Positions 28,514-61,250 of a stretch of DNA of 64,000 nt are shown here, piece after piece. How positions within the stretch are numbered: the first letter of the stretch is position 1; the number at the start of each line of letters is the position of its first letter. Below the pieces are notes generated by a model that saw only the letters and a list, made by a program, of their open reading frames with translations, was not told the DNA's origin and did not search any database. The DNA comes from Chloropicon primus (lineage: Eukaryota > Chlorophyta > Chloropicophyceae > Chloropicales > Chloropicaceae), in assembly GCA_023205875.1 (NCBI GenBank), contig CP060759.1, forward strand, positions 1,031,501-1,095,500. Reading direction: 5' to 3'. Both the position numbers and the translations under genes were made by a program.

Positions 28514-29983
28514 TCACTCCTCCTGCTTGACCTTGACGATGGAAGGAGCCGCCTTGCTTCGTGTTCTCTTCGACGAGCGACGAGGAGCTTTGCAGAGCCC
28601 GACCTCTTCCAGGTACTCTCTCTTCACAATGCATTGTTCCTTGTCGCTCAGCTTAAGAGATGCGTCCGCAAAGATGATCCTCAACGCCTCGTTGTAGTCC
28701 GCGATCTCTTTCTTCTTCTCCGGGGACTTGCTGTCGTAACGCTGGGCCTCCTGCACGGCTTCGGCGTACTCCTCCTCCGTCATCAGGCCGGACTCGAGAG
28801 CCTCTCTCAAATCCAAAGCATAGGGAGAGGGAGAACTCGTCGCCGTCATGTTGTTGTTGGCGGCTGAGTTGGAGTCCTCCTCATTCAGGTTGTCGGCGGT
28901 TGATCGATTCAAGTATTCCTTGGCAATGGCATATATTCCCAGGGCATTGCGAACAAAGCGGGGACTGCGTGAACAAGCAGCACTGACCCTCTTCTGCAAT
29001 TTCTCATCATCAGTAGAAACAGAACCATCCATACGCCTGAACACATATAGCTTCTTCGCCTTGATACGGGCAAGGATCTCTTTGATGTGCAAGCTCCTTC
29101 CCACATCTTGAAGAACGCGATAGATGGCATCCCGAAGCGTTGAGGTGCTGACAGCAACTTGAGTATTGGACCCATTCAAATATTCCTTGGCAATGGCATA
29201 TAATCCGTATGCAGTGCGAACAAAGAGGGGGCTCTGTGTACAAGCAGAGCTGACAGTGTCCCGCATACTCTTCGGATCAGTATGAACAGAACCATCTTTT
29301 CGCTTGAACACATACAACTTCTTGGCCCGGATCCGACCAAAGATCTCCTTCACGTGCAAGCTCCCTCCCGCATCTTGAAGAACGCGGTAGATGGCATCCC
29401 GAAGCGGTGAGGGCCTGACAGCATCTTGAGTATTGGACCCATTCAAGTATTCCTTGGCAATGGCATATCTTCCGTATGCAGTGCGAACAAAGCTGGGGCT
29501 CTGTAAACAAGCAGTGCTGACAAGTCTCCGCATTTTCTTCGGATCAGTATGGACAGAGCCATCTCTCCGCCTGAACACATATAGCTTCTTCGCCTGGATC
29601 CGTGCATGGATCTCTTTGGCGCGCAAGCTCCCTCCCGCAGCATCTTGAAGAACGAGGTAGATGGCAGCCACAAGCGTTCTCTTTCCATTCCTAGTCTTGA
29701 TAGGACGTGCGTTGCCTCTCATCATAGTCACCTCTGCTGGCTCAGGCTGAAAAGACGAACCCGCACCACCACTATCCTCCTCACTGTCGCTCTCCTCTTC
29801 GATGATCGTCGTAGAGCCCGTCGAGAAGCTCGCCAAATACTCTCCGTCCACGTCCATGTCCATGGCACCTGGGGACAATCCTCCCTTGTCGTCATCACCA
29901 CCGGCGACGGCCCTCGCCGCCGCGATCATCGCCGCCGTCGACCTGGTGCGTGTCCAGCTTCTCTGTCTCGTGGGACACCTCAT
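28514..29983 (-). CDS. protein with three tandem winged-helix (HARE-HTH-like) repeats
   Basis: 489 residues from ATG 29983, one exon; a frame open further upstream runs into the duplicated block and is not used. After an acidic, Ser/Asp-rich N-terminus come three repeats of 89 residues, each with L-AIY-VLQD, S-L--KEI---I-AKKLYVF, DGSV-TD, V--AC--SP-FVR-A-G-YAIAKEYLN. The 267-bp units are so alike at DNA level that the duplication is recent or homogenised. The pattern (helix, helix, aromatic-ended wing, F-R---G-YA) resembles HARE-HTH or forkhead-like winged helices, so DNA binding is inferred. The C-terminus is charged and ends KVKQEE, a SUMOylation-like motif. Its 5' end and upstream region recur in part at 60.8 kb. 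Divergent from the FAD monooxygenase. Confidence 0.72.
   Translation of the reverse strand: MRCPTRQRSWTRTRSTAAMIAAARAVAGGDDDKGGLSPGAMDMDVDGEYLASFSTGSTTIIEEESDSEEDSGGAGSSFQPEPAEVTMMRGNARPIKTRNGKRTLVAAIYLVLQDAAGGSLRAKEIHARIQAKKLYVFRRRDGSVHTDPKKMRRLVSTACLQSPSFVRTAYGRYAIAKEYLNGSNTQDAVRPSPLRDAIYRVLQDAGGSLHVKEIFGRIRAKKLYVFKRKDGSVHTDPKSMRDTVSSACTQSPLFVRTAYGLYAIAKEYLNGSNTQVAVSTSTLRDAIYRVLQDVGRSLHIKEILARIKAKKLYVFRRMDGSVSTDDEKLQKRVSAACSRSPRFVRNALGIYAIAKEYLNRSTADNLNEEDSNSAANNNMTATSSPSPYALDLREALESGLMTEEEYAEAVQEAQRYDSKSPEKKKEIADYNEALRIIFADASLKLSDKEQCIVKREYLEEVGLCKAPRRSSKRTRSKAAPSIVKVKQEE
28897..29697 (-). repeat. three tandem 267-bp coding repeats
   Basis: Units 29697-29431, 29430-29164 and 29163-28897 on the minus strand each encode one 89-residue winged-helix-like module. 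The phrase ATTCAAGTATTCCTTGGCAA recurs with one or no change near the start of each unit on the plus strand. Confidence 0.9.
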
Positions 29984-30424
29984 GATGAAACAAAGCACCG
30001 CACGACACTGCGCAGCTCGACGAAGACTTGCCTTCCTCTTCCTCGTCACACAACCGAGCCAACAACTCACGAAACAAACTTCGAGGCAACCTCCTCCTGT
30101 AACGCCTGTCGTAGCAAAGAGAGCGAGCGAGCGGAGGACCACTCCGTGCGCCAAAACCTTCAGCCGAGGTGTCGATCGAAAGCCCTTGAGACGCGCTTTC
30201 GTTCTTTCAACACCTCCTCCCCTTCGCCGTCCCCGTCCGTGCACAAAGTCCTCGACAAAAACACCTTCCCTCTCCCTTGTTGCGCGACGAACCCGGGCGT
30301 TAATTCTCACTCGTGTTTTCAACTCCTTATCTTCTTCTTCTAGGGTTTTTCGCGCGAGGAAATCCTCAGGAGGGGACGCCGAACCAGGAGGGGGATGGAG
30401 GGATGATGTAGAAGGGAGAAGGGG
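29931..30424. repeat. duplicated intergenic block, copy A
   Basis: Copy A spans the 5' end of the winged-helix-repeat gene and the whole space to the FAD monooxygenase, ending 12 bp before its ATG. It matches 60780-61250 throughout, apart from indels and substitutions mostly in the left third, and its core 30157-30334 also matches 32068-32244. Core copies differ at only a handful of positions by eye. Confidence 0.93.
30395..30411 (+). promoter_or_regulatory. two minimal upstream ORFs before the FAD monooxygenase
   Basis: ATG GAG GGA TGA (30395-30406) and ATG ATG TAG (30403-30411) overlap in different frames 26-42 bp before the start codon at 30437. If the mRNA starts upstream, both would be met first by scanning ribosomes. 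Confidence 0.4.
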
Positions 30425-30436
30425 GACCAGGGCAGC

Positions 30437-31672
30437 ATGGCAGCAGCGGTGTTAACCACCCCGCGAGGAGGGGGGCGAGGCCCCAGGGTGCGAGCTCACG
30501 CCGCTTCAGGCGTGGATCGGAGCCTGTCTGATCGCGTTGTCGTCGTGGGGGGAGGCATCGCTGGGCTGGCGTGCGCCGTGGCTCTGAAACGGGCAAGGTT
30601 TCCCGTCACCGTCCTGGAGTCCGCCAAAGGGAAACGCGAGGGCGGGACGGCGATAGCCTTGTGGACGAATGCTTGGCGTGCTCTCGAGAGTCTCGGGGTG
30701 GCGGACGAGCTTCGCGCGGGGCATCAGGAACTGAATCAGATCCAGCTGTGCGCAGCAAAGCAGAAAGTCTTGAAGTCGTTCTCGCTCGACGAGTGCGACG
30801 GGGGGCCGCACGAGTTCCGTGGGGTGTACAGGAGGGAACTATTAAGCGCCTTGGAGTCCAAGCTTGACGGGACTGACATCATGTACGGCGTGGAGGTGAA
30901 GGAAGCGACCACGAGCGGCCAGGGGGTGCTGCTGCAGACGAGCCAGGGCCAGGCGTTGGAGTGCAGGGCGGTTGTGGGTTGCGACGGCATCGGATCAAGG
31001 GTGGCCGACAGCCTTGGGCTGCCCAAACCGAACTTCTCGGGCTACTCTGCGATCCGAGGGGTGGCCACCTTTCCCTCCGACTTAAAGCCCATTTCGAACA
31101 CCGTCAGGCAGATCATGGGCAGCGGGATGCGCGCGGGGATGTACCCTCTGTCGCGCTCAGAGGTTTACTGGTTTGTCTGCTTTAACTCGGATTCAGACTG
31201 GGCCAAAACGTGTCGCAAAGACGATGTTTTGGAGAAGTTGAAATTGTTCAACGACTGGGATCACGCCCTTTCTGAAACAATTGCTGCGACAGACGTGGAG
31301 TCCGTGTCTGTGGGCTCGATCAGCGACAGATGGCGTTGGGGAGGCGTTGGCGTCGGCAACCTCACCGTGGCCGGCGATGCCTTACATCCGATGACACCTA
31401 ACTTGGGCCAAGGCGGCTGCTGTGCCTTGGAGGATGCTGTCGTTCTTTCCAACTGCCTTGCCCGTGGCCAGGGGACAATGGAAGAGGCTCTGAGAGAGTA
31501 CGAGAGGGAGAGGCTGAAGAGGTGCTTCCCCCTGACGGTGCGCGCGAACATCATGGGCGCCCTCCTTCAGATAGGGAACCCTATCGTCACCGGGGTGAGG
31601 GACGCCGTCATCGAGAGGGTGTTCTCGCCTGCTCACTTCCTGGATCACACTTGTTTTGATTGTAGATTGTAA
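30437..31672 (+). CDS. FAD-dependent monooxygenase, MO1/zeaxanthin-epoxidase-like
   Basis: 411 residues, one exon. A 30-residue Arg/Ala-rich leader precedes a PHBH-type flavoprotein: VVVVGGGIAGLACAVAL (FAD Rossmann motif), ALWTNAWRALESLGV, the DG motif in VVGCDGIGSRVADSLG, and GDALHPMTPNLGQGG (second FAD motif). Closest by eye are plant MO1/CTF2 monooxygenases and zeaxanthin epoxidase relatives; it lacks the FHA domain of true zeaxanthin epoxidase, so substrate is unassigned. The leader suggests plastid targeting. The stop TAA lies in TTGTAAGG, again TGTAA, and MIF ends 19 bp away on the other strand. Confidence 0.88.
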   Translation: MAAAVLTTPRGGGRGPRVRAHAASGVDRSLSDRVVVVGGGIAGLACAVALKRARFPVTVLESAKGKREGGTAIALWTNAWRALESLGVADELRAGHQELNQIQLCAAKQKVLKSFSLDECDGGPHEFRGVYRRELLSALESKLDGTDIMYGVEVKEATTSGQGVLLQTSQGQALECRAVVGCDGIGSRVADSLGLPKPNFSGYSAIRGVATFPSDLKPISNTVRQIMGSGMRAGMYPLSRSEVYWFVCFNSDSDWAKTCRKDDVLEKLKLFNDWDHALSETIAATDVESVSVGSISDRWRWGGVGVGNLTVAGDALHPMTPNLGQGGCCALEDAVVLSNCLARGQGTMEEALREYERERLKRCFPLTVRANIMGALLQIGNPIVTGVRDAVIERVFSPAHFLDHTCFDCRL

Positions 31673-31691
31673 GGTTTTTATAATGTACGAA

Positions 31692-32048
31692 TTACTTTGC
31701 GAACGTGCTCGAGTTGAAGCCAAAGTTAGACCTCGGGGGATCAATGAAGTGGATGTAAGTCCTGTTCGGCGCAACGCCCAGCTTTGCCTGAACGAACTCA
31801 CATATCCCTTTACTGATGGTTTTGTTCTTCTCTCCACCAATCGATCCTAAGCTCACGAGCTCCACGAAGGCCGCGGGTTCCTCCGTTCCCCCGAACGCCA
31901 TCGTGACGCCCGCCTCCAGCAAAACCATCACGTAAGCCTCTGGTTTCCCGAGGAGATCGGCAACCAGCGCACTTGCCTCCCTCACGACGTCCGACTGCGA
32001 GATCCTGTCGACGCTGGTCGTGTTGGTCTTAATACTCAACGTGGGCAT
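31692..32048 (-). CDS. MIF: macrophage migration inhibitory factor/tautomerase homologue
   Basis: 118 residues, one exon, the standard length of MIF/D-dopachrome tautomerase. Met-Pro at the start leaves the catalytic Pro2 after methionine removal. Other family marks are SDVVREASALVADLLGKPE, YVMVLLEAGVTMAFGG, ELVSLGSIGGEKN and RTYIHFIDPPRSNFGFN. In plants and algae such proteins are cytosolic or peroxisomal tautomerases. The ATG is only 20 bp from copy B of the duplicated intergenic block, so that block probably provides its promoter (inference). Confidence 0.93.
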   Translation of the reverse strand: MPTLSIKTNTTSVDRISQSDVVREASALVADLLGKPEAYVMVLLEAGVTMAFGGTEEPAAFVELVSLGSIGGEKNKTISKGICEFVQAKLGVAPNRTYIHFIDPPRSNFGFNSSTFAK

Positions 32049-32067
32049 GGCTCCACCCTCCCTAAAC

Positions 32068-32244
32068 CCTTCAGCCGAGGTGTCGATCGAAAGCCCTTGA
32101 GACGCGCTTTCGTTCTTTCAACACCTCCTCCCCTTCGCCGTCCCCGTCCGTGCACAAAGTCCTCGACAACAACACCTTCCCTCTCCCTTGTCGTGCGACG
32201 AACCCGGGCGTTAAATCTCACTCGTGTTTTCAACTCCTTATCTT
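32068..32244. repeat. duplicated intergenic block, copy B (core only)
   Basis: 177 bp nearly identical to 30157-30334 and 60983-61159, including TTTCAACACCTCCTCCCCTT and CCCGGGCGTTAA. Lies between MIF (minus) and ureide permease (plus). Neither the left part with the gene 5' end nor the right GGATGATGTAG part is present. Confidence 0.93.
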
Positions 32245-32384
32245 TTTGAGTTTTGCAGAGCCCAGGTTGGAGGAGGCGAGTCCTGCGACAAGGATGGAGT
32301 TGGATGGATGAAGGGGACGAGGGGAAGAGGGGAAGAGGGGAAGAGGGGTAGAGAGGTTTTAACCCGGACAGTGCTGTCGTTGTG

Positions 32385-33581
32385 ATGGTATCGTCGTGGA
32401 CTTGGGTGGAGCTCGGAGCCTCCCTGGTGTGCTTGGGGACGTGGCCGGCCTTGCTGGAGCTGGCGAGGCGGCCCAGGAAGACCACCTCTCACGAGAGATG
32501 TCAGCACGTGTGCTTTCTGGATTACGCTCTGAGCTACGGCGTGTTCGGCCTTGTGCTCCTGGTCGCGGCGAGTGGACGCGACGGGCTCGGTGTGCACGTG
32601 AGGACGATCGGGGGAACCACGCTTTGCCTTGTCGCGGCTCTCGGTGGGGCGCTGCTTCAGACGGGGAACAGCTGCATGCAGGAAGCTCTGGCGCTCGGTT
32701 GCCCGCTCACGACGCTGCTCCCGCTCGAGGCTGCCTTGTGCGTCGTCATCGGCACGACCGCGAACTTCTCGCTCCAACCTGAGCGGAGCGACCCGAGACT
32801 CCTCTTCTCCGGCGTCGCGCTTTACCTGGTCGCGATCCTCTCTTCTACCGGAGCACAGCTCACTCACCAGTTCGGAGGAGGGGAGGAGGCTTTGAGAGGG
32901 GAAGCGGGGGCCACGGGCGCGGGGGTGCCTGAGCTCGAGCCCCTCGTGGTCGGCGGGGGGAGCGTCGACGCCGACGAGATCTCGCCGGATGCCATCGCGA
33001 GCTTCAGGGACCGAACGAGCTTCAGGGAACGGGGGAGGAGCCAAAGGGCCCGCACCAACAGGAGGAAGGGCCTCATGATCGGCGTGCTGGGCGGCGTCGC
33101 ATTCGGGTTCTTCACCCCAGCGTTCAACATCGCTGTGAACGATCCTTTCTCGTTCGTGGCGAGCGCCGAGGGCCCCCACAGCCCCCTCAGCGTAACGGCG
33201 GCCAACATGATCTTCGCCCTGTCCTTCACGGCCTCGGCTGTGCTTTCCCAGTCCCGAAGCCTCCTGAAGAAGCACGAGAAAGAGACCGCGGCGTCGATTC
33301 TTAGGGCAAGGTACTTGGGGTCGGGCGGGGTGAGGCGAGCGTACGCCATCCTGTCCGGAATTTTCTGCTGCCTCGGGAATTTTCTGCAGTTTCACGGGGG
33401 GAAACTTGCAGGCTTTGCCGCCGCGGATGTGGTGCAGGCCTTCCCCCTCGTCGGTACGCTGTGGGGTGTCCTGCTCTTCCAGGATTACAATCACGCGAAC
33501 CGGAGGACCATCTTCCTCCTCTCGAACACATACTTGTTCTACTCCGGGGCGGTTGCCCTCCTCGGCTTGAGCGCCAAGTGA
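32385..33581 (+). CDS. UPS: ureide permease (UPS) family transporter
   Basis: 398 residues, one exon, about ten membrane helices in two halves of five separated by a cytosolic loop (about 165-225). The N-terminal signature LVCLGTWPALLELARR followed by a conserved LDY, and the internal NFSLQPERSDPRLLFSGVAL and PLSVTAANMIFALSFTASAV, match plant ureide permeases, which import allantoin, uracil and related oxo-heterocycles with protons. The start is ATG 32385; the frame opens 3 bp earlier with GTG. Divergent from MIF with copy B of the duplicated block between. A TGTAA was not seen close to the stop. Confidence 0.82.
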   Translation: MVSSWTWVELGASLVCLGTWPALLELARRPRKTTSHERCQHVCFLDYALSYGVFGLVLLVAASGRDGLGVHVRTIGGTTLCLVAALGGALLQTGNSCMQEALALGCPLTTLLPLEAALCVVIGTTANFSLQPERSDPRLLFSGVALYLVAILSSTGAQLTHQFGGGEEALRGEAGATGAGVPELEPLVVGGGSVDADEISPDAIASFRDRTSFRERGRSQRARTNRRKGLMIGVLGGVAFGFFTPAFNIAVNDPFSFVASAEGPHSPLSVTAANMIFALSFTASAVLSQSRSLLKKHEKETAASILRARYLGSGGVRRAYAILSGIFCCLGNFLQFHGGKLAGFAAADVVQAFPLVGTLWGVLLFQDYNHANRRTIFLLSNTYLFYSGAVALLGLSAK

Positions 33582-33930
33582 TCAGGGCCGCTCGGATCTG
33601 ATTCGTTTTCTATTCATTCATTCATTCATTTATTCATTATTTCTTTTCATCCATGCCTCGATCGATGTTCGACCGCCCCCGCCACCGCCACCGCCACCGC
33701 CATCGCCATCGCCATCGCCATCGCTTTCTCTCAGATATTTTCGCGCTCATTTCGATTTTGAGGACTCCAGTCCTTCTGTCGATCGATCGGCTGCCTCGAC
33801 TCGACTGCGCGCGAGCAAGGGAGGGCGAGACCAAGGAAGGGCGACACCAAGGAAGGCCTCGCCTCGCACTGTGATTCGCTTGGACGTGACGTGAGGCGAC
33901 GACGCGACGGCGGACGGCCTGGACGAAATT
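33582..33930. other. intergenic region with simple repeats
   Basis: 349 bp holding (CATT)n at about 33614-33640 and (CACCGC)/(CATCGC) arrays at 33678-33722. Serves as the ureide permease 3' region and leader of the next gene; nothing else recognised. Confidence 0.5.
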
Positions 33931-34461
33931 ATGGAGTGGGAATGGAACAAGGAGGCCAGAACTTCCCAGGGCTGCGTTTCCGTGCCGCAGTGGGCGGCAG
34001 AGACCCACGTCTGCTCCTGGGGGTGTCAGATCGAGCACGTCATAGGAAACATGTGAGTTCTCTCCTCTCTCTCTGCTTCCCTCTCTCACACACACACGCA
34101 CGCACACACCGCTCACACACTTTTTTTTTTCATTGTGCGTGTGTGTGTGTTTGGCGCAAACAACCACAGGTACAGGTGCGCCGCTTCAGGCAGCGTGCAT
34201 ATCTGTGACCAGAACTGCAAGCAAAAGATTCCCCACGGCCCCAACGAGGATATCTGCTACGTGAGCAGGAGGATCTTCGAGAAGAGGAGAGAGAACCAGC
34301 CGAGCAGGAAGAGGGGAGCCTGCCAGGCGGACTGCGATTGGGGGGCCAGCAAAGCGGCGCTGCAGCGGACTCTCCACCAGCCCAAGTTCGTCTCGGCCTT
34401 CTCCTTCGCGCGATCGGGTGCGATCGCCGCAGTGGACCCTGTAAACTTCGACATCTTGTAA
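33931..34461 (+). CDS. small Cys/His-rich putative zinc-binding protein
   Basis: Two exons, 33931-34052 and 34170-34461 (AT/GTGAGT, CACAG/G, phase 2), encode 137 residues. The first half has an ordered set of Cys and His: HVCSWGCQIEH, MYRCAASGSVHICDQNC and EDICYVSRR, i.e. two C-x3-C pairs, H-x-C and later Cys, suggestive of one or two zinc sites. The second half is basic then hydrophobic/aromatic (FVSAFSFARSGAIAAV). I do not recognise the family. The intron removes an (AC)n/(T)n/(GT)n stretch. The stop TAA is within TTGTAAC, overlapping a putative poly(A) signal; the convergent DNAJC21 gene ends 59 bp away. Confidence 0.68.
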
Positions 34462-34520
34462 CTTTCTCTCTCTCTCTCTGTGTAACAGTAACACCTGATG
34501 AATTACCCAAACAACCAATA

Positions 34521-36227
34521 TTACTTCAGGGCCGCGTGCTTTGTCTTCTTTATGTGCTGGAAGAGCTTGTTCCTGGACTCGAACTGCAGGCCGCACACCG
34601 AGCATTTCAGGGCCTCCATCTTCTTTTCCTCCTCGAGCCTCTTCTGGGCCAACTTCTTCTCCTTCCTCAGCTGAGTCTTGTTTAGCTTCTTCTTTCCCTT
34701 ATTCTCCGCCGGCGGTTCCACGGCCTCCGTCTCCATCTCCTCGGCCTGCTGCTCTTCCCTCCCGCGCCCCTTCCCGCGCTTCTTCCCCTTCTTGTTGCTG
34801 CGCTTCGAGTTTCGGAGCCCTTCGTAAGCTTCGATGATTTCTTCCGCTTTCACGTCCTCCTGATCACTCTCCTCCGACTCGGAGGAGGACTCTTTGCCCA
34901 CGTTCATCGAAGACGACATCATGCGGGTCAACATCGCGTCCTCGTCCTCCTGATCACTCTCCTCCGACTCGGAGGAGGACTCTTTGCCCACGTTCATCGA
35001 AGACGACGTCATGCGGGCCAATATCGCGTCCTCCTCCTCCTCCTCGTCGTCCTCCCCCTCGCTCGAGCTCGCCCCTTGCTGGTCGACGGGCCCGTCCCCC
35101 CCCTCGGCAGGAGCTGGTGGCTCCTCCTCCTCCTCCTCCCCCTCCTCGCCCTCCTCTTCGGCGGCCATGGCGGCCATTTGCCTCTCCTCCTCCTCAAGGA
35201 ACTTCCTCATCTCCTCCACATTTTGGAGGTGCTTCTTGGACTTCTCGTGGTTCTTGAGCTGCTTCTCCGATTTGAACTTCTTGCTGCAGACGACGCAGTA
35301 GGACCCCTTCTTGACTTGCTTCACCTTCTCGTCGTCGTCCTCAGCAACCTTGCAGGCTGCGCCGTCCCCATAAATATCATCATCCGGCTCTTCGTCCTGG
35401 TCGGCAAAGGCCGAGTCGTCGTAAGCCGCAGCCTTCCTGAGCCTCTCCTCCTTCTCCCTCCTCCGCCTCTCCTCCAGTTCCGCTTTCTTCGCTTCCTTCT
35501 CCTCCTCCTTCTCCTTCTTGCGCTTCGCCACCCTCTGGTCCCGCCTCTTCACGAAGGCTGCCAAGTCCCTCACCAAGTCGTTGAACTCCTTCTTTGCGTG
35601 CTTCTTGAGCTTCTTGTTCTCCTCCTCCATCAGCCTGCGCACCTTGCGGTTCGGGGCGGAAGCCAAGTTGTACTCCTCCACCCAACCGAAGTCCCTCTCC
35701 GTGCAGAAGTTCGACCAGTGGTCGTAGAACGCCTTGACGTCCACCCAAGCGCTGGTGCTCTTGCCGAAGGGAGGGGGGAAGCTGAAGTCCTTCCCCTTGG
35801 ACTCGGCCCTGCTCCTCTCCACCTCCGATACGAGGTCAAAGAGCTCCGAGTAGACGCTGTAGAACCCTTGCCTGTCGTCCCCAAAGCCCTTGTAGCAGCT
35901 CGAGCTAAAGTACTTGTACAAGTCAATGCTGGCCTCGTCGTCAGGCTGCTCGCTCCCTCCGCCTGCCCCGGAGCTCCCTCCCTTCTGGTGCCTCTCCCCG
36001 GAACGCAGAATCGCATCTCGGTGGCTGTCGTACCACTTCCTCTCGTCCGCATCGCTCAGAACCTCGTAAGCGTTGGTGATCTCCTTGAAGGTCTTCTCGG
36101 CCTCCTCCTTGTTGTTCGGGTTCTTGTCCGGGTGCCACTTTATGGCTTGCTTCCTGTACGCCTTCTTTATCGCCGCGTCGTCCGCGGACTGCTCCACGCC
36201 AAGGATCTCGTAAAGGCACTTCACCAT
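34521..36227 (-). CDS. DNAJC21: DNAJC21/JJJ1-type J-protein
   Basis: 568 residues, one exon. A J domain ([30 protein letters not shown] intact) begins at residue 3. The JJJ1-specific region [20 protein letters not shown] and AYDDSAF follows, then a U1-like C2H2 zinc finger ([24 protein letters not shown]), acidic repeats, and a second C2H2 finger at the very end ([17 protein letters not shown]). Yeast Jjj1 and DNAJC21 stimulate Hsp70 in cytosolic maturation of the 60S ribosomal subunit. A 90-bp tandem duplication sits in the acidic part. The start is ATG 36227; an upstream GTG is ignored. Confidence 0.94.
34856..35035 (-). repeat. 90-bp tandem duplication in DNAJC21 coding sequence
   Basis: Two adjacent 90-bp units, 34856-34945 and 34946-35035, differ at only a few bases and encode a 30-residue acidic module with [20 protein letters not shown]. 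The reading frame is kept. Confidence 0.95.
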
Positions 36228-36487
36228 CCCGCCCCCCACAAGCCACAAAGCCACAAGGCTGACCGACCGACCGACCGACTCTTCTCTTCACCAGCCGCCT
36301 CAGATCTGCAGACTAAAGGGAGAGAGGGAGGGATTGGATGGGAGGGAGGGAGGGAGGGGTTGGTACAAAACTCCAGAAGAGGTGGGACTGTGATGTTACA
36401 CATATACCTCTCTCTCTCTCTCTCAACAAACGATGGATTGGATTGGATTGGATTGAATTGAATTGGAGGGATTGGTGGTGTTACATC

Positions 36488-37348
36488 TCAGCGATTCTCG
36501 TTGCTGCTGCTGGTTTTCGCGTCGCTGGTGCTGAAGTTGAAGTAGGGGTCGTCGTACGTGATGATGTTCTCCCTTGCCTGCGTGCTATACAGGATCGAGG
36601 GGTTGCGAATCAAGTACACGCAGGCGTCCTCGTTCGGCATCAGCCTCTTGATCTCCTCGATCGCAAACTCGACCTGCTGAAGGTCCAGGAATATCGGATT
36701 CAGCTCCACGGCGCGATCGACGTCGTCCGTCTTCAGGAGCGCCTTGAGCCTCTCCGCCTTCTTCTCGACGAAGCCCATGTCCTCGTAGAGAATTGTCGGG
36801 TTCGAGGCCACCAGCCTCGAGACGTTGGCCCGCGGGAAGATCTCCTTGAGCTTCAGAAGGTCGTGGGGGATCGTTTTGCACTTGACCGCAAGCCTCGCAA
36901 TATCCCCCACCTTCATGGTCTTCAGCTTGGGCTTCAAGTCGGGGACCAGCTTCTGCAGAAGAACCAGGCGCCTCCTGACGTGGTCCTCCTCCACCCCAAG
37001 CTCCCGCGCCACGCACTCCACCGCCAGCGCCAGCTTCGAGTCGTCGTTCCAGCCCGCGGGCTCCAGAAAGTCCTCGTCCGCGTCCACGATATTCCCCAAA
37101 GAGTTTGTCCGCCTCTTCCTCCGTTTGGTGATGTACTCGCCGATAACCCAAGGCTGAGCCCGGTCACCCCCCTCCGACTCCGACTCCGCTCGTATCCTCC
37201 ATCCCCCTCGTCGACCCGACCCCGATGCCGAGCTCCCCGCACCCCTCCTCGTCGACCCCGACGCCGAGCACCACTCCCTCCTCGTCGTCGACCCCGACGC
37301 CGAGCACCACTCCCTCCTTCGCGTCGTCGTCGTCGTCGTCGTCGCCAT
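36488..37348 (-). CDS. mTERF-like helical-repeat protein, probably organellar
   Basis: 286 residues, one exon. The first 60 are Arg/Ser/Thr-rich with tandem RREWCSASGST-type repeats, a plausible transit peptide. About 90-260 contains mTERF-like helical units, with the Pro-x-Leu/Ile-Leu ends characteristic of the family (VSRLVASNPTILYED; VDRAVELNPIFLDLQ; ACVYLIRNPSILYS). mTERF proteins bind organellar nucleic acid and act in transcription, splicing or translation. It is shorter than usual, with four or five units. ATG 37348 is the first in the domain frame that does not overlap the divergent GNAT gene. Confidence 0.62.
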   Translation of the reverse strand: MATTTTTTTRRREWCSASGSTTRREWCSASGSTRRGAGSSASGSGRRGGWRIRAESESEGGDRAQPWVIGEYITKRRKRRTNSLGNIVDADEDFLEPAGWNDDSKLALAVECVARELGVEEDHVRRRLVLLQKLVPDLKPKLKTMKVGDIARLAVKCKTIPHDLLKLKEIFPRANVSRLVASNPTILYEDMGFVEKKAERLKALLKTDDVDRAVELNPIFLDLQQVEFAIEEIKRLMPNEDACVYLIRNPSILYSTQARENIITYDDPYFNFSTSDAKTSSSNENR

Positions 37349-37514
37349 CTCCGTCCGTCGCGATACGATTTGGATAACGGAACGCTTCCTGGCCGCAGGT
37401 TCGCGGGAGGCCAAGCGCCAAGGGGTTGGATCGATCGATTGTTGTTGTGTTGTTGCGTTTGGCGAGGGAGAGGAAAAGGGGTGAGGGGCCTGCGTCAGTG
37501 GACTCGGGCTTTGG

Positions 37515-38477: not shown

Positions 38478-38494
38478 TCTTAAAATCTTTTGTG

Positions 38495-39514: not shown

Positions 39515-39780
39515 GGACCAAACCACACCCCAGATCCCTGAATCCCTCCACGAAAACGAAGAACCCAAAACAAGACCGAAACCACGCCACGCCACCTGTT
39601 CCGTGTGTGCGCTCCCGGCGTTCTCTCCAGCCCTCTGCCTCTCCGTCCTCGTCCTCGTCGTCGTTCCCCTCGTCGCTGGGAAGAGGCAGGCAGCCGTCCG
39701 CGCGCGTTGTTGAGACAGAGAGAGCCACCGGTGGGCGAAGCGAAGGGGAGGGGCGAAGAGAGGAGAGAGGAGAGGAGAGG

Positions 39781-40833: not shown

Positions 40834-40959
40834 AAACGTATCGCGTATAATCATAGCAAAGTTTGTAAAAACCTCAAAAAAAAACCTGTAGCACGCCGCA
40901 GGGCGATCAAGAATCTGGTATGGATGAATTACAAGAAATGGAGAGGATGATTCAGAGTC

Positions 40960-43900: not shown

Positions 43901-44286
43901 TTCTCGGCGAGCGCCTTGGCCAGGTTCAGGGCCGTCTGCCCCCCCATCGTGGGAAGGAGGGCGTCCGGCTTCTCCTTGATGAGAATATCCTTGACGGACT
44001 CGGGCGTCATGGGACCCACGTAGGTGCGGTCCGCCGTGCCCGGGTCCGTCATGATGGTGGCAGGGTTCGAGTTCACTAGGACGATCTCGTAGCCCTCCTG
44101 CTTGAGGGCCTTGCACGCCTGGGTTCCACTGTAGTCGAACTCGCAGGCCTTTTGAGAAAGCGAACGAAGCGAAGCGAGGAACGAGGAAAGAAAAGAAGAA
44201 GAAGATGAAGAAGATGATGATGATGATGATGAAGTGTGTCAGCGATCGCGACGGGGGTAGCTGGCGCGCGAGAGGTAAACACACAC

Positions 44287-44345
<59 letters not shown>

Positions 44346-46277: not shown

Positions 46278-46367
46278 CCTCCTCCACTTCTCCAGGCTCC
46301 TCCACTTCTCCAGGCTCCTCCACTCTTCTCCGCCACAAGATCATCTAATGATGATATGTTAGGTGTC

Positions 46368-47702: not shown

Positions 47703-47840
47703 GTTGCTGTGCCTCAGTCAAAAACCAACCCAAACCACTACCCCAAAGGCTCAACCCAGATCTTCTCCAAGCTCTGCTCCCCCCACCTCACGCAAGAAGA
47801 CACACAGACACAAGACCAAGCCAGCCAGGGAGGGAGCTCG

Positions 47841-47884
47841 TGTCGTGTCGTGTCGTGTCGTGTCGTGTCGTGTCGTGTCGTGTC
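47841..47884. repeat. (TGTCG)8 array, left arm of inverted pair
   Basis: Eight full TGTCG units plus TGTC. Complementary to the array at 48151-48180. Confidence 0.97.
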
Positions 47885-48150
47885 TGATCGTTGCAGATGT
47901 TTTCCCCTGGGAATAAGAAGGTTAGAGAATCCTCAAGGTCCCTTGTCCTGTCCTGCGGTTTCCTGTGGTTTCTCCTGTGGTATCCTATGTTCCCGCCCTG
48001 GTTTCCCTGGTTTCTTGATGTCTCGTATCGTATAGGTACCGTTGGCTCCTTTGACTGTCGAGCTGAAATTTGAATGAATGAAAGGATTATCCTGGAGAAG
48101 AGGAAGGGACCCAGGGGTGGGGACGAGACCAACACAACACAACAGAACAC

Positions 48151-48180
48151 GACACGACACGACACGACACGACACGACAC
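48151..48180. repeat. (GACAC)6 array, right arm of inverted pair
   Basis: Six GACAC units, preceded by degenerate CAACA/AGAACAC units. Together with the left arm it could form a 30-bp stem closing about 270 bases. Confidence 0.97.
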
Positions 48181-48523
48181 CTGTCCCAGGGGGGGGGGAG
48201 CTTGGGAGGAACAAGGGACTTCACTGGGGATTGGGATTTCGTTGGACCCCCCAACTCGCATCACACTCGCTCGTTGGGGACAACCACGAGGGACACACGG
48301 ACACGGACACGGACACGGACACTGGAGGGGTGGGAAGGCTGAAAGAGGAGGAAAGAGGCTATAGGAGTGTCACTGGGTAAACGACGACGAAGAGGTTGGA
48401 CGAGGAGGGACGCGTTGTTGGAGGAATCAGTCACCGTGGCCAAAGACGAGGAGCGCCGCGAATGGCTCTCTTCGAAGGTCGTCCGCTGGGGGGTAGCGTA
48501 GTGTAGTAGCGTCAGAGTTGAAC

Positions 48524-50770: not shown

Positions 50771-50808
50771 CCTTATGTGCAATATAATCTGTAATTCAGA
50801 AAGCAAGT

Positions 50809-52992
50809 TTATTCTTCATCGCAAAACACTTGGAAGTCATCCGTCTCATCGCTGGTGAAAGCCTTCAAGCGGTCCGCTGGCAATTCCAAAAGGCTCTCGT
50901 CTCTTGTAAAGATGTCATCGTCGTCAAAGTCATCCAGCGCCAACCCACTGCCCACCTCAATACCCCGGGACCTCAGCTCATCGTCGCTCATCTCGTCAAG
51001 CGGCAGGCCTTCCCTCGGCGCGCAATTCCCCAGACCACCTGCCGCTCCACTGAACAACCCGTTCTCCTTGTCCTCCACCTCTTCAGCACAGAACTTGGCG
51101 TTCCCAGGCTCTTGCGCCTCGCTGGTCGAAGGCAGGAAGGTGGTATCCTCGTAGATTTCCAGATCGAACCCAGCTCCGGCGTCCTTTCCGACGGACTGCA
51201 GGCCGAAGTCCAACTTCTTCTGGTGGGAAAACGGAGCCGCCTGCACCGAGCTAGATGCCGCAGGAGTTGTGATTTTCTTGCTCTTTTGTGATGTGAACAT
51301 GGCATCAATCGTCTCGAAGGCCTCTTTCGTGTACAGAGTGACGTCCTCCCCCTGTGAGGTACCCACTTCCAGTTCCGACTGGACATCTTCCTCACCAATG
51401 GTGAGTGCCCGCATGTCGTGCAGGAGCAAAGCCCTCCTCTCCTCGAAGCTAAGGTCCTCTCCCGTCTCTGCATCCTTGACGTTGAGCTCGTCATAGGCCA
51501 TGACCGTCTCGCTCGGTTTGACCTTTGACTTTCTCGAGGATCCCTTCATGGCGGAAGAAACGACGCCTTTCCTCGCGGAATCCCCGACGTGCCCGTCCGC
51601 TCTCTGCCTCACGGTGGACGCGGGATCGGTCCCGAGCGCGAAGGGCGTGGGCTCCACGAACTCCTCGTCCACGAGAATGTCCAGGGAGGGCGCGGCTGGT
51701 GCACCTGCCCCGGGCTGCTGCTGCATGCCAGGCCCCGCGTTCGACTGCGCGATACTATAGGTGTTCCACTTGGACGCCGCTTGCTCATTCTCCTTTGAAA
51801 TCTCATCCTGCGTCTGAAGCCTGTTCCAGTCGGGTTGGGACTGCTCCGCCGCCCCTTCCTGGGCAATGGTTGACAAAGCGTTCCTCACAACGCTGTTCTT
51901 GTTGGTGTTCATCTCAGAAGGCGTGTCGGCGTAAATGCTGAACTCCTCGTTGTTGTTGTTGTTGTTGCTCCTGGCCTGTTGCTGCGCTGCCGCTGGAGTT
52001 GCCTGCACAGGCGTTTGAAACACCCCGGCGTTTTGGCGCCTGTCCTGCGAGAAAGGAGCAGACCTCTGGATGCTCGACAGAGCGTGCCTGCCCTGGCTGC
52101 CTTGCGTCATGGGAGTGGCTTGCAAGGACCTCCTCGCATCCCTCTCTGCTCTCTTCGCCATCCTTTTGTGGAAACCAGTCAGCTTCTTCCTCAGGCGGTC
52201 CAGTGGCATTGCCATGTTCGCTATCCCCAGGTCGTAGACCGCCATGGCTTCCTTGTGGCTCCCCCTCTTTTCCAGACACAGGGCGTACGCCTCGTAAAAC
52301 AGAGCAAACTCCTGCCCAATGTTGTGGACTTGCAGGAAGCGAAAGATGTCTTCGGGGTCTTTCACGAGGTCGGCGTACTGGATCCAAATTCGAAGCATCC
52401 TCGCGTCCCTTTTGCACTTCTCGTCCTCGAAGAGGTCGTTCGTGCACCTCTCGAGCAACTGGACCAACGCGGTCTGCTTGCTCGCTGCCGGCAACGCCGT
52501 CTGGTACCACTTCAGGTAAAGCACCCAAAGCCCAAGCTTGTCATCGCCCTCGTATGAGGTCAGCTCCGCCTCGAACGACCTGTTGAGTCCAAGGGAGAAG
52601 GGACCAAGCGTTGATCGGTCAGCGTGCCGCGCACGAAAAAGAAAAGAAAAGAGCAACGCGGGAGAAGGAGGGAAGGCCTCTCGTGGAACCTGCGTGCGGC
52701 GGTCCGAACGAACCCTTCGCTCTCTCCCGATGAGCGAACGAGCAAACGGCCGGTCTTACCTCTTTTTGTCCTCGAACTCCTGCGTTGCCTTTTGCGCGGC
52801 CCTTCTGTCGCCCGACACGAGCCCCGTGGCCTGCTTCAAGGCCTCGGCACTCCTGCCGACCTTGACGGGCTGCAAGTTTTCCTTACTTGTCTCCCACTGA
52901 AACCCCTCTTGTTCTTCCTCCTTCCTCGCCTCCCTCTCCATTCCCGCTGCAGGTTCGGCGGGTTTCGCGAAGACCTGACCCTCTCCTTCCAT
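50809..52992 (-). CDS. MAD3: MAD3/BUBR1 spindle checkpoint protein
   Basis: Two exons, 52992-52760 and 52579-50809 (AG/GTAAGA...CAACAG/G), encode 667 residues; the junction gives EDKKR-SFEAELTSYEG. Exon 1 carries the N-terminal KEN box in WETSKENLQPVKVGR, the wording of BUBR1/Mad3 KEN1. Exon 2 opens with the Mad3/BUB1 TPR-like domain (LGLWVLYLKWYQTALP; LRIWIQYADLVKDPEDIFRF; FYEAYALCLEKRG). Two more KEN motifs occur (EISKENEQ, EDKENGLF). There is no kinase domain, so it is the Mad3 type: a pseudosubstrate inhibitor of APC/C-Cdc20 in the mitotic checkpoint complex. The rest is acidic and low in complexity. Confidence 0.92.
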
Positions 52993-53364
52993 TTTCTCTC
53001 CTATATCTATATCTATATCTATATCTCACGCAACCTCTTGTTCCCTCCTTCCCCTCCCCGGGTTCGACCTCGTCGCCCTCCGTCGCCACCCCGCCCTCTC
53101 CGTCTGTCGTTTTCCCCTCCCCTTCGAGCGCGAACAATTTCAAAAAAAAAATCAATCGAGCCCAGGAGGGGTGCTCGTGCTGGGGGAGGGGAAGAAGGAA
53201 GGAGCGCCGGCGGTCTTCGCTGTGTGAAAACGTGCTACAATGATTGATGATTGATGCCATTTCAAAGGAACTCGCGGTGCTTCCCTGGTGGCGGGACGAG
53301 GGATCAGCGAGCGAGTCGCTATCCCGACTTTATAGGAGAAGATGAAAAAAAGGCGGGGCGGTTC
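52993..53364. other. MAD3 leader / RAB6 3' region
   Basis: 372 bp with four ATATCT-type units at about 53001-53026 and C-rich stretches. No gene supported; the open readings are low-complexity Arg/Pro/Ser. Confidence 0.5.
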
Positions 53365-56261
<2,897 letters not shown>

Positions 56262-56753
56262 TTCGGGCTCTCCACCTTTCCCAAGAAGAAAGACGTCGTT
56301 CCAAGGGCTTTCTCTAGTGTAATAAAGAAGAAGATGAACAAGTCACTTGCGGCTGTTTCTCTCCCAGAATGGTCCAAAACCCCTTTCCTCATCATCCTAT
56401 CCTTCCTATCCTATCCTTCATCTCGTCATCTCCTGCATGCTGGGCCTCTTCGCGTGGCTTCTTCATGGGGGGCCATACGAACAGACGTATAAGGCCAAGG
56501 CAGAGATCGCAGAGAGCGGATGGAGGGCAGGAGGCCTTACCTCCTGGGAGTGGGCGAGGGGAATGAAAGATCTGGATAATCACCTTCATCGAGCACATCG
56601 AGCACATCAAGCGCATCACCAAAAACCATTGCTCAAAGAGGAGACACGACTTTGGGATGGGGGTGATGTGCTCGTGACAAGTCTGCAAGTGGTGTGACCA
56701 TGATCTCCGTCTCTTGATACAGCGGGTGCTTGTGTACCAAAGTTATAGTCGTG
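56262..56753. other. intergenic region EML / PA-domain gene
   Basis: 492 bp. TGTAATAAAG near 56317 fits the EML poly(A) signal. CGAGCACAT-type units are repeated at 56597-56615. A reading from ATG 56437 has 86 codons but no recognisable features. AT content rises from here to about 60.5 kb. Confidence 0.45.
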
Positions 56754-59700
56754 ATGACTGGGGGTCGTACCACGATGATGACTTTTGCCAAGGTCTTCGT
56801 CGTCTTGTTCGTCTTGTTGATCTCCTGGAGTCCCAAAGCAGTGGTCTGCAACGAGTGGTCCTACTTCACGATAAGGAACGCTACCTCTACCCTCCAAATA
56901 GGGTGCCAAGGGCAGCCACACAAGGTGAGACAGGGTGAACTGGCCTCAATAACGATAGCGAAAGAAGACATCGACCTTGTCGAAACCAAGCGCCAGACTC
57001 GGGAAACAGGTACTGACCACTGCTGAACTTGTCGGAAGACTTCTCGACCTCTAGGGAGCAATGAAAGTATTACTCTTGTGCAGGCTAACATGGACTGCGC
57101 GCAGGAGATGAAATACGTTGAGGACTTGGATGTTGAAACGGTGAGGCTCCTCTTCGCTTGAAGGCATCTATGTCTTCCAAGCCAGAGAATTCCCACTTGG
57201 TAGCGCTGAAAACCTGACGCACCCTGTTTTTGCTCAATGTCTCTCTCGTCTTTGTGCCACCTGTGCAGGTGAAGGACAAAATTGTGCTTCTTCAATTCTC
57301 GAACTGCGCAACGACCTGGACCGAAGCGAACCAGGAATACTTCCACACAAGTCTCTATTTTCTTATGTCCACCTCAGCCCGTGGCATGATCTTCGCAGAA
57401 CGTTATCGTGGGAAGTTGCCTGGTGTCTCTGTGCTTGGAGAGAATCTTCAGAACTTCATGCCACCGTCTTGCATCATCACCGCCGAATCGTATGACAAGG
57501 TGCTTCAAACATACATACGCGAGGCGGGTGGGAGCAACACCATCCATCAGGGGTCTTCTTGGGAAGCAGACATGTCCTCTGTGTCCTTTCCACCTCTCAA
57601 GGCGCCTGACGCCGGAGATCCTGTTCAAGTCTCGTTAACGCAGGCGTACAAATTGTTCAATTCCTTCAAGTACGGGGACAAGGCTGAAGCGATGGATACG
57701 TTCATAGAATCGTTCGAGTTCCTGTACCCTCTGCAGTACATTAACTTCCTTGGCGAAGCGACTGAGTTACCTCTTGGTAGAGCGAACAATTTGGGGCCCC
57801 AAGTCAATCCTCAGATCATCAGCGAAATGGTTGTTGTACGTAGGAACGGGACCTGTATGCAGAAAAGCTATTCCGCTTGTGCTTCTCATTGTTACGGGAG
57901 GCCCTTGTCTGAAATGTTTGACTCGCAAGAATTGGCAGGCAAGATTGCCCTTGTCATTATCCCGGAAAGCCAATCAGAAGAATCCTCTGTGATGGAAGGG
58001 TGTTTCCGGAGCCTTCAAGATTATCCGATTTTGCTGCAGGAACTAGGGGTGAGTGCAGTGATTCTATCACTTGGCGAGGATTTCGAGCTGCCTCATCGTG
58101 ACCAGGCAGTACCTTTTGCAGATATCAAAGTGCCTGTGCTCCTTGCGCCCTTATCGTATGCGAAGTACCTGAATTTCACGAATCAGTTGGGGGAAAGGCC
58201 TGAGGGTGAACCATTGGCGCCTGCTTTGTTCATAAAAAATGCGACGCTGCCGGCAGTGAGTGATTTATTGGATGTGATGAACTTGGGGGTGATGAGAAAA
58301 CAGCCGCATTTCAAATACCTGCCATTTGGTGCTCCTGCAAACCAAATCGTTCATACCAGGAAGAATTCCTCAGCAGCTGTTGGTCTCTCAGAAATGATGT
58401 CCAAGTATTTTGCAGACCCCATGAATGGTGATTATTTTCTCAGGAGTTTAGACGCTATGCTTGGGGAGCAGTACAGGTTCACTGTATCGGAAGTCACTCC
58501 CGAGAAATCGGACTCGAGTGCTACCGAGACTGGCGCAAGAGGCAGTGTGACTTACTCTTATATGCATGGCATTCAAGACACCTTCTTCTCGGGTGCTGAG
58601 TCCAATCACTCCTATTGGAATCAAAATTATTTTGACCCTCCCCGCTTCGACGATGACGTCGCGGCGTGGAAAGGAATGAGAATGTTGCAACTGAAGCCCA
58701 CAGATCACTGCACACCCCCACCAGGGACTTTGATGGGATTTTGCTTGGATTCGTGCGTTGGCAGTGGCTATTTCCAGCCCCTCGCAAACATCACAGCGTA
58801 TGACGACGTTGCTCTGTTGTTTGATGAAAGTGAGCACGTGTGCCTGCCGACTAGAGAGATCTACCTTCGTGCGCTTTCTGAACTCAATTTTACAAACGTT
58901 CGAGCTCTTTTGGTCGGTAGCGACGAGACAACGAAAGTTTCTACTTTTGTGCACAGGGAAGAAGGGGCCGATTTTGGTGTGTACGACGTGCACCTCGACA
59001 TCTTAAGCAGGTACAGAGAAGCATCTGTTTTGGACTTGAACAAGAAAGAAGTCTACTTATCACGGGATGTTGTGGAAGAAGAACTCACTCGCTTTTGCAG
59101 TTCCGGTCACATTGTAGAGTCCTTCAGACAAGCCGTCCGTGGAATGCTCAACGGCTTGAACATCACGGGTGGGGAGGGAGGGGAAATGTATGATTTGGAG
59201 AACGCCTCGTCGCTGCCCTTCGCAGTCGAACAACTCCGTGAAAACATTGGGGACATGTGCGGAGAGTTCGACAAAAAAGCGACGAAAGCAATCAAGGTAC
59301 TACACCCACGATCGTCAGTACTGAGAAGGCAAAGGAAAGAGAAAGAGAATAAACCTATCCTGTGGGAGAGTTACAACAGGATAGGACTAGAGTTTGCGGG
59401 AGTAGCAACAGACAGTGCTTCGCTTGAATCTTTTTCTGGTGAAGTGGTCCTTGTGGAAACCCACCCCAGCTGCTCCTCGATTGATTGCACAGGCTGCAAC
59501 GAAAGGTTCAATGACGTTGACCTCCGAGGCAAGATAGCTTTCATTCCTTTTTTGCGTGAAGAATACCTTCAGGACAACTATGTGGCGGACTTTTACTTGG
59601 CGATAGATCAGAATGTTACCGTCGAGGAGGTTTTGAGCAATCAGAAAGATTTTCTGTCGATCCTTCGTTCTTCCGCACAGGAGAGAATGCAAGCAGCTGG

Positions 59701-60397
59701 CGGAATCCACGCCAGCTGCTTGTTGCCGACGTACAATTTGATGAGGTTGCTCAAGGAAAGAGGTGCAAGCGCTGTTGTGTTTGGGAACGATATGTATGAA
59801 ATCTATCGGACGACGTTCCGCGGGTGGATGGCGGAGGACACAATACCGATGTTGAATATCAACGACTTGGCCAGCAGGGAATGGTACAGAATTTTGAAGC
59901 ACGCGAACGAGTCGCTGATTGTGGACGTCCGAAGTTGGAATCGGATCTCTTCGGTGGATCTGGCTGAAATCTTCTTGCAGAGATTGGACAAGGAACCGAA
60001 GAAACAATTTTTAGACAGGATGAAGGTGACGATGGCCATCGACAAAGTCACGAATGAACCGTATTCTGGCGTGACCACGATCATTGCCACCCCAAGCATT
60101 GAATCTCTCAAGAGCGAGAAGGCACGCGATGAAGATTGGGCTTACAAGACTGCCCTTTGGGGCGGAATCGCATCCGTGTGCTTTGCGGTCGGCGTCGTGA
60201 GTCTGTTGATCAGGCACTACATGGGGAGGCTCTCCCTTGCAAGACTGCAGGAGGTCCAGACAGTGGACCTGTCAAATCTGCCCATGGCTATGAGGAATGA
60301 GAGCAACGCCACGAGACGTAACCCCAATGTTATCTTCCAGCAAGACACCTACGGTTGGGGCCCATTCCGAGAAAGGAGAAGCCGTTCCTACGTTTAA
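56754..60397 (+). CDS. large type I membrane protein with PA-like domains, unknown
   Basis: Three exons, 56754-56924, 57084-57140 and 57269-60397 (GTGAG donors, TGTGCAG acceptors, phase 0), encode 1118 residues. Signal peptide MMTFAKVFVVLFVLLISWSP; the lumenal part carries several protease-associated-like units: VETVKDKIVLLQFSNCATTW, ELAGKIALVIIPE followed by LQELGVSAVILS, DLRGKIAFIPF and LLKERGASAVVFGND. Many N-glycosylation sites (NAT, NHS, NIT, NES) fit an extracellular or vacuolar lumen. One transmembrane helix (ALWGGIASVCFAVGVVSLLI) lies about 65 residues from the end, before a cytosolic tail with basic end. No protease catalytic motif was found. Codons are markedly more A/T-ending than in neighbours. 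Function unknown; sorting receptors share this plan. Confidence 0.72.
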
Positions 60398-60779
60398 GAA
60401 TTTTTGCCCGGCAAGACTTTTTTTGTGGACGAGACAAACTTTTGGAGAAGAGATAAAGTAATAATGGTAGCAACAACAACAACAACACAACTGTATCATA
60501 ATTAGCCCCCATTTCAAACACAGCCTGCCTCCTCTCTTGTCTCTCTCTCCTCTTCTTCCTCTCCTTGCAAAATTGTCTGACGGGGGGCCCGTCCTTGCCT
60601 CCCTCGCTCGCCCGAATCACACCGAGGGCTTCCTGGGGTCGAACATCCTCTCCTTGGAGTTGGTCCGGGCGACCGCCTCGTTGTCCTTGGACTGGTCTGC
60701 GTTGTTTGACATAAATAACGTCTTGCCGCCCTCGTCCTCCCCCTCGTCGTCGGCGGCGCAGGTCACCAGGGTTGTCAGC
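60398..60779. other. 3' region of PA-domain gene and unassigned DNA
   Basis: Contains (CAA)n at about 60469-60490. Between about 60617 and 60780 the minus strand is open in frame with the 5' fragment of the winged-helix-repeat gene but does not resemble that gene. Confidence 0.4.
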
Positions 60780-60919
60780 GCCGCCGTCGACCTGGCGCGT
60801 GTAAAGCGTCTCTGTCTCGTGGGACGCCTCCTCACCGCACTGCACCGCTCGCGACTTGCTCCTTCGAAGACTTCCCTCCTCTTCCTCTTCACGAACCGAG
60901 CCAACAACTCACAAAACAA
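60617..60919 (-). pseudogene. 5'-end fragment copy of the winged-helix-repeat gene
   Basis: The minus strand encodes RRPTRQRRFTRARSTAAL, matching the N-terminus of the gene at 28.5 kb (MRCPTRQRSWTRTRSTAAM), but the homologous ATG is missing and the similarity stops right after this; none of the winged-helix repeats follow. It is part of duplicated block copy C. The open frame goes on for about 50 unrelated residues to a stop. Interpreted as a truncated duplicate; a new chimeric gene is possible but unsupported. Confidence 0.45.
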
Positions 60920-61250
60920 ACTTCAAGGCAGCCTCCTGTAACGCCTGTCGTCTCAAAGGGAGGACCACTCTGTGAGCCAAAACCTTCAGCCGAGGTATCA
61001 ATCGAAAGCCCTTGAGACGCGCTTTCGTTCTTTCAACACCTCCTCCCCTTCGCCGTCCCCGTCCGTGCACAAAGTCCTCGACAACAACACCTTCCCTCTC
61101 CCTTGTTGCGCGACGAACCCGGGCGTTAATTCTCACTCGTGTTTTCAACTCCTTATCTTCTTCTTCTAGGGTTTTTCGCGCGAGGAAATCCTCAGGAGGG
61201 GACGCCGAACCAGGAGGGGGATGGAGGGATGATGTAGAAGGGAGAAGGGG
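60780..61250. repeat. duplicated intergenic block, copy C
   Basis: Matches 29931-30424 from GCCGCCGTCG to GAAGGGAGAAGGGG. The right two thirds (from about 60975) are nearly identical to copy A, including GGATGATGTAG; the left third is more diverged with indels. The core 60983-61159 also matches copy B. No plus-strand gene equivalent to the FAD monooxygenase follows. Confidence 0.93.

Follow-up and report, generated by a model that had tools for sequence, protein, structure and literature searches.

Why should one block of intergenic DNA occur three times, nearly unchanged, within 64,000 nucleotides of a compact genome, and stand twice between divergent, unrelated genes? The question is raised by a stretch of Chloropicon primus, a tiny marine green alga (picoalga); "the window" denotes this whole 64,000-nucleotide stretch. 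The three copies, termed A, B, and C, share a core of 184 bp at 96-98% identity, of which the first 107 bp are the most conserved part. A preliminary description had read the block as a duplicated bidirectional promoter, either spread as a mobile module or homogenised by gene conversion. The analysis described here reveals that the block belongs to a dispersed multigene family, of which it forms the 5' flank; the family encodes HARE-HTH domain proteins. The explanation that we favor, with moderate confidence, is that it represents the divergent promoter region of this family, that gene-less segments of it remain beside other genes, and that conversion has homogenised the cores.

The search covered the genome of 17,584,162 bp in 20 contigs, which range in the assembly from 417,210 bp (shortest) to 1,855,637 bp (longest); labels such as C8:552960 or C14 denote places in this genome. 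The genome-wide count of copies that the preliminary description had called for gave at least 41 core matches (a lower bound, with 40 of 65 candidates scored and one match of just 49 bp), and their flanking genes were catalogued. A HARE gene or its 5' arm lies within 400 bp to the left of the core, in the expected orientation, in 28 of the 41 listed matches, and no HARE match in the wrong orientation was found to the left of any of the 41; neither gene nor arm is present in the other 13, which include B. This constant register identifies the block as the 5' flank of the family. The protein encoded beside A matches the HARE-HTH profile PF05066 in two stretches (E 6.5e-12, 46.1 bits against a cut-off of 25.9), and a tblastn search with it returned 93 matches in the genome, of which 9, including the gene beside A, span residues 1-489. 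Nine full-length copies have a ratio of nonsynonymous to synonymous divergence (dN/dS) of ~0.69 over their aligned part. The 5' arm has 33 genome matches and the right arm of A has 10. When core, right-arm, and 5'-arm matches were combined with 81 of the 93 tblastn rows, 71 clusters emerged: 25 in which the core accompanies a HARE or 5'-arm match, 11 made up of just the core, 33 that have HARE or 5'-arm matches and lack a scored core, and 2 consisting of the right arm alone. Three core copies carry the tail of the next tandem HARE unit on their right side. We also note neighboring HARE units with spacer DNA on C4, C9, and C13, which hold the longest shared spacers in the family.

Within the window, a 30-mer of the core, allowing up to 3 mismatches, is found 3 times, against none in 100 shuffled sequences. 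Copy A (29926-30424) aligns over its full length with copy C (60775-61250), with 442 of 469 aligned bases identical and 37 gap positions. Core B is identical to core A at 178 of 184 positions and to core C at 177 of 184, and cores C and A are 98% identical. Self-comparison of the window by BLAST (E up to 1e-5, longer than 60 bp) listed no further dispersed intergenic repeat. The features of the three copies and their neighbors are as follows.

28514 to 29983, minus strand: HARE-HTH family gene beside copy A, 489 residues with about three repeats of ~89 residues, intact, ATG at 29983
29926 to 30152, unstranded: 5' arm of copy A, comprising the first ~20 codons and the leader of the HARE gene (the 33 genome matches are to 29920-30160)
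30153 to 30336, plus strand: core of copy A, 184 bp
30161 to 30185, minus strand: directional 25-bp element in A, assumed to act in the minus sense, in the direction of the HARE gene
30337 to 30436, plus strand: right arm of copy A (type I), with a pyrimidine tract, TAGGGTTTT, and the DNA up to the monooxygenase ATG
30437 to 31672, plus strand: gene resembling flavin adenine dinucleotide (FAD)-binding monooxygenases (PF01494, E 2.5e-26)
31692 to 32048, minus strand: MIF gene (PF01187, E 2.1e-26), its ATG 15 bp from core B
32064 to 32247, plus strand: core of copy B, with no HARE gene attached
32072 to 32096, minus strand: directional 25-bp element in B, 23 bp upstream of the MIF ATG
32250 to 32347 (approximate), plus strand: right arm of copy B (type II), matched at C14, C4:1352335, and C8:552960
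32385 to 33581, plus strand: ureide permease gene (PF07168, E 3.9e-43)
60775 to 60978, unstranded: 5' arm of copy C, a decayed HARE gene 5' end whose start codon is gone
60979 to 61162, plus strand: core of copy C, placed by alignment to A and B
60987 to 61011, minus strand: directional 25-bp element in C, located by the element search
61163 to 61250, plus strand: right arm of copy C, identical to that of A

The near-identical threefold repeat of the preliminary description is thus confirmed, as is the position of A between a winged-helix gene on the minus strand and an FAD monooxygenase gene on the plus strand. B does lie between MIF and the permease, with the MIF ATG 15 bp away rather than 20. 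Its description as core only does not hold, because its right flank matches the type II arm at the three loci given above; through C14 and C4 this arm is linked to C19 as well. To the left of B there is no trace of a HARE gene. The account of C as carrying a degraded HARE 5' end and lacking an obvious plus-strand partner proved accurate: the family ATG position is no longer ATG in the alignment, ~60 bp of the coding 5' end are left, and no ATG-started plus-strand open reading frame (ORF) with coding-like codon usage occurs between C and the minus-strand ORF at 62702-63514, although a mechanical ORF rule alone does list plus-strand ORFs there. Neither B nor C is joined to a functional family gene; B is a solo copy at MIF and the permease, and C is a relic.

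The ends of the copies bear on how they were spread. A non-autonomous mobile element or mobile promoter, inserting upstream of genes with the HARE gene as a passenger or absent, would account for the dispersal of the block over many chromosomes beside unrelated genes, and the left edge at core position 1 is indeed often sharp in the BLAST table. Several of the core-only copies with such an edge, however, retain 35-50 bp of the 5' arm. On the right, the core match ends at positions ranging from 107 to 184 and further, and downstream of the HARE gene homology breaks off at many points, from ~40 to 520 bp. Comparison of the flanks of the copies gave no common end point on either side of the block, and no inverted termini are among the repeats listed for 29000-62500. 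As far as the listed repeats and an inspection of the flanks by eye for target-site duplications go, the ragged ends on both sides disfavor a DNA transposon or miniature inverted-repeat transposable element (MITE), and we regard a mobile element in the broader sense as unlikely. Relics of graded completeness are present instead. What is left at C6:621933 is 46 bp of 5' arm together with the 3' end of the HARE gene, and at C7:390515 a 70%-identical HARE 3' flank abuts core position 72; both layouts suggest what internal deletions would leave. Such traces of a lost gene were not seen at the core-only copies B, C4:1352335, C18, and C20, and amount to at most a few bases at C1:1798085. The ragged ends, the graded relics, and the lost start codon of C together argue for segmental duplication and decay rather than a transposon with defined ends.

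How, then, have the cores stayed alike? The histories of arm and core are uncoupled. When the 23 HARE-linked copies are compared in 253 pairs, the 5' arm and core positions 1-107 show no correlation in divergence (Spearman 0.05, p 0.45): A and C8:552960 differ at 0 of 200 arm positions and 6 of 107 core positions, and A and copy C at 40 of 189 and 3 of 107, respectively. Cores on the same chromosome are closer to one another than those on different chromosomes (0.055 versus 0.083, permutation p 2e-4), which was not found for the 5' arms (p 0.18). Furthermore, the variant GAGGTGTCGATCGAAAG is common to A and B only among the scored core copies, and the right arms of A and B differ. These three observations are best fitted by ectopic gene conversion, which they suggest for the cores, probably in preference to a shared history of duplication. 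Adjacent segments do have conflicting relationships, as gene conversion produces, and other forms of recombination would look alike. Core positions 1-107 are also less divergent than the third codon positions of the HARE genes in 101 of 120 pairs (16 copies).

The genes beside the cores were catalogued for the 40 readable core copies. On the right-hand side, an ORF was called for 34, of which 25 start away from the core and 9 point towards it; none was called at the other 6, three of which have the tandem HARE tail. The excess of gene starts has p 0.0045 against an expectation of 0.5 and p 0.031 against 0.565, a value rounded from the intergenic make-up of the loci studied. The right-hand genes are mostly conserved and, as judged from Pfam, mutually unrelated. 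They include NamZ, cyclophilin, guanylate cyclase, zinc knuckle, Utp11, FHA, aldehyde dehydrogenase (two), Duc1, glutamine synthetase, GKRP, P450, glycosyl hydrolase 14, SelO, V-ATPase AC39 (d), JmjC, RAMA, a Methyltransf_4 methyltransferase, MCM, and AMP-binding proteins, together with the monooxygenase and permease of the window; the 474-residue ORF at C1:690009 had no Pfam match. To the left of the 13 core-only matches there are 6 minus-strand ORFs with the start facing the core, 6 3' ends of plus-strand ORFs, and 1 case with no ORF called. Five of the six core-facing starts lie within ~300 bp: those of MIF, a pyridoxal-dependent decarboxylase, and three ORFs without a Pfam match. Starts point away on both sides at A (HARE gene and monooxygenase) and B (MIF and permease), and not at C; 2 of the 13 core-only matches (B and C15) are flanked left and right by called starts no more than 600 bp away, and the core-only copy on C18 sits between two gene ends.

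The core contains a directional element of ~25 bp, CAGCCGAGGTRTCRATCGAAAGCCC, at positions 9-33. With up to 3 mismatches the 25-mer occurs at 85 genome sites against 0 for the control; the inner 19-mer occurs at 219 sites against 2 for the reversed control (up to 3 mismatches) and the inner 15-mer at 448 against 7 (up to 2 mismatches). GTGCACAAAGTCCTCGACAA, another conserved block of the core, was found at 60 sites against 1 for its control. A weight matrix built from non-core sites, when reversed, gave no match at a score of 8 or above in the loci studied. Of the 70 element sites listed outside scored cores, 63 have no HARE or arm match within 2.5 kb; the other 7 do, 5 of them in register (~1.4 expected at random). 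The range of the element therefore greatly exceeds that of the block.

In seven host genes, the start codon is faced by the reverse complement of the element, with gaps of ~23 to 251 bp to the ATG: MIF (~23 bp), the pyridoxal-dependent decarboxylase (42 bp), a kinase at C2:745146 (51 bp), which we take from its translation to be Vps15-like, JmjC (55 bp), V-ATPase AC39/d (86 bp), AMP-binding (214 bp), and MCM (251 bp). The elements at MIF and the decarboxylase are those of core copies, and the JmjC, V-ATPase d, AMP-binding, and MCM genes lie to the right of cores. These arrangements would fit an element that is read as its reverse complement and that may initiate transcription. Of the 40 right flanks, 5 contain a second, outward-facing element, a layout resembling a divergent promoter with two elements, ~298 to 320 bp from core position 1 (offsets +298, +299, +315, which is weak with a score of 7.2, and +320; the C20 copy lies at +291 from a match start at position 8, hence ~+298). 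The opposite orientation gave no score above 0.5 in the same 40 flanks. In two more facing element pairs the distance between 25-mer starts is ~282 bp, at a relic of the HARE arm, and ~311 bp.

Some further occurrences are recorded for completeness. Same-orientation pairs 178-186 bp apart were seen at four loci (C12:501814/502000, C6:586120/586306, C18:336388/336566, and C5:694850/695031), and variants with changed middle letters (for example GGCTCTTTCGAAAGATC or GGGGTCAAACGAAAGATC) precede other genes at loci L026 (position 1311), L051 (position 1456), and L043 (upstream of C3:735795). A further strong match, C8:554583, lies at the end of its locus. By-eye comparison of kinase, ankyrin, and RRM gene positions with the listed sites gave one close case with consistent orientation (a kinase at C1:1445329, at 282 bp, with a second kinase on the other side) and three more distant, inconsistent ones, too few to use.

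Taken as the promoter region of the HARE-HTH family, the block could have acquired its present distribution as follows. Together with their 5' flank, HARE genes would have reached new intergenic sites through duplication of segments whose end points vary. Wherever a deletion later removed the gene, or the copy had lacked it from the outset, a promoter segment would be left beside other genes, as at C and as at MIF and the permease, which B may drive. The left-hand (minus) gene would have as its promoter element the ~25-bp element close to the left core edge; the right-hand gene would start from the other core edge and, at some loci, from the second outward element ~300 bp away. Ectopic gene conversion would keep the cores alike, mainly within a chromosome. 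Common control of MIF, the permease, the monooxygenase, and the HARE gene, as the preliminary description proposed, would be a possible consequence. Of its duplicated bidirectional promoter, the fixed orientation, the intergenic position mostly at gene starts, the resemblance to a divergent promoter, and the signs of homogenisation described above stand; the block is, however, primarily the 5' flank of the HARE family. The free mobile module is disfavored, and what is widespread on its own is the ~25-bp element.

Several observations weigh against this promoter reading. Copies scattered without regard to gene starts, the refuting outcome named in the preliminary description, are not what the counts show, but gene starts on the right are in only modest excess: with the tandem tails counted as failures (25 of 37) this excess has p 0.024 against 0.5 and is not significant against the intergenic expectation (p 0.12 against 0.565). 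Among the 11 core-only copies that keep the element, it faces a gene start in 5, the 3' end of a plus-strand ORF in 5, and no ORF in 1. No second element above a score of 2 is found in 35 of the 40 right flanks, those of A, B, and C included. The best scores in 99 other gene upstream regions have no significant sense bias (p 0.10), with 5 sense and 2 antisense matches above a score of 12, and a universal promoter signal was accordingly rejected for the element. With respect to homogenisation, local duplication may explain part of the same-chromosome similarity. The first 60 HARE codons (29804-29983 and homologs) are more uniform at silent sites than the core (dS 0.005), which indicates that low divergence is not special to the promoter and leaves constraint on the core alone undemonstrated. 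Lastly, the match to the consensus is no better in core-only copies than in linked ones (0.948 versus 0.951). We also note that across nine copies these 60 codons have a dN of 0.029 despite the dS of 0.005.

Much of this would be expected if the HARE genes were simply duplicated with their flanks and B and C were neutral debris, decaying remnants that do nothing for their neighbors. The graded relics, the absence of a start codon in C, the many scattered HARE fragments, the unexceptional consensus match of the core-only copies, and the five elements that face a gene 3' end all agree with such a history. It does not readily explain why the core is retained in core-only copies though the adjoining gene is gone, why B lies so close to the MIF ATG, or why the core element recurs at more than 400 sites, for the most part far from any HARE or arm match among those listed. 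Neutral debris is thus a possible account, and we consider it the less probable one.

A structured non-coding RNA or an introner-like intron was also considered, in view of the right edge, with its pyrimidine tract and AG, and of an imperfect inverted repeat at core positions 14-64 in A and B. The folding z-scores, however, are just -1.5 to -1.8 on both strands, and the window contains no Rfam match at the gathering score; a structured RNA was rejected on these grounds. Facing element pairs ~300 bp apart would make no sense as splice donors, and we hold either possibility to be very improbable. A coding function of the core was set aside because its variable sites are spread 10/8/4 over the three phases with no clear pattern. 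A 29-bp core pattern has no match in viral contigs, where no relative of the HARE protein was found, and a single 20-mer match in the bacterial collection, in a metagenome-assembled genome of Paracoccaceae, was judged to be due to chance (~2 expected by our own arithmetic). AGGGTTT was rejected as a general start motif, with 9 occurrences in the window against ~6 expected and no pattern by eye, and the top 45 enriched 7- and 8-mers of the other upstream regions are low-complexity or ATCGATC-type words.

A wider proposal is offered tentatively, as rather doubtful at present. C. primus may use a directional promoter element of ~25 bp at ~440 sites, with divergent pairs as two outward copies ~300 bp apart; the HARE-HTH family, which has a DNA-binding fold, would carry many of these and seed promoter segments at housekeeping genes, so that unrelated genes would gain a shared start signal, possibly read by HARE-HTH proteins themselves. 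Little work seems to have been devoted to promoter grammar in Chloropicon. The word "promoter" was not found by a search of the main text of the Chloropicon genome papers (including PMC12301720), and among the literature matches listed for the element letters, prasinophyte promoter motifs, bidirectional-promoter duplication, and promoter conversion, none described the present case. With near-copies in the hundreds and next to no background, the element offers a direct handle on where transcription may start. If the core-only copies are active, a gene family would be handing its promoter to unrelated genes, with the copies kept alike by recombination.

Elsewhere in the window, a 90-bp tandem duplication (34845-35041, 93-96% identical) lies inside a gene whose start reads J-domain-like, and two facing GTGTC/GACAC pentamer arrays stand 248 bp apart at 47825-48190. 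The stretch 56001-60000 is low in G+C (49-51% versus ~59% for most of the window), and a 1010-residue ORF occupies 57365-60397.

Among known systems, the block can be compared with several. Like the bidirectional (divergent) promoters of compact eukaryotic genomes, it is, in copies such as A and B, a short intergenic segment between divergent starts, at some loci with two outward elements ~300 bp apart, but it occurs in at least 41 copies with unrelated right-hand partners. ASXL and HB1 share with the family the HARE-HTH (PF05066) winged-helix domains, here repeated about three times; in the picoalga, by contrast, these belong to a multicopy family. MITEs and other promoter-bringing elements also place repeated promoter-proximal DNA beside unrelated genes, whereas the present block has no defined ends, belongs to a longer unit with a gene, and contains an element much more widespread than that unit. 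Dispersed families under concerted evolution by ectopic conversion have the same many paralogs and fragments, mosaic similarity, and closer cores on the same chromosome; in C. primus, unlike in those families, the history of the promoter core is uncoupled from that of the gene arm, and the core survives without the gene.

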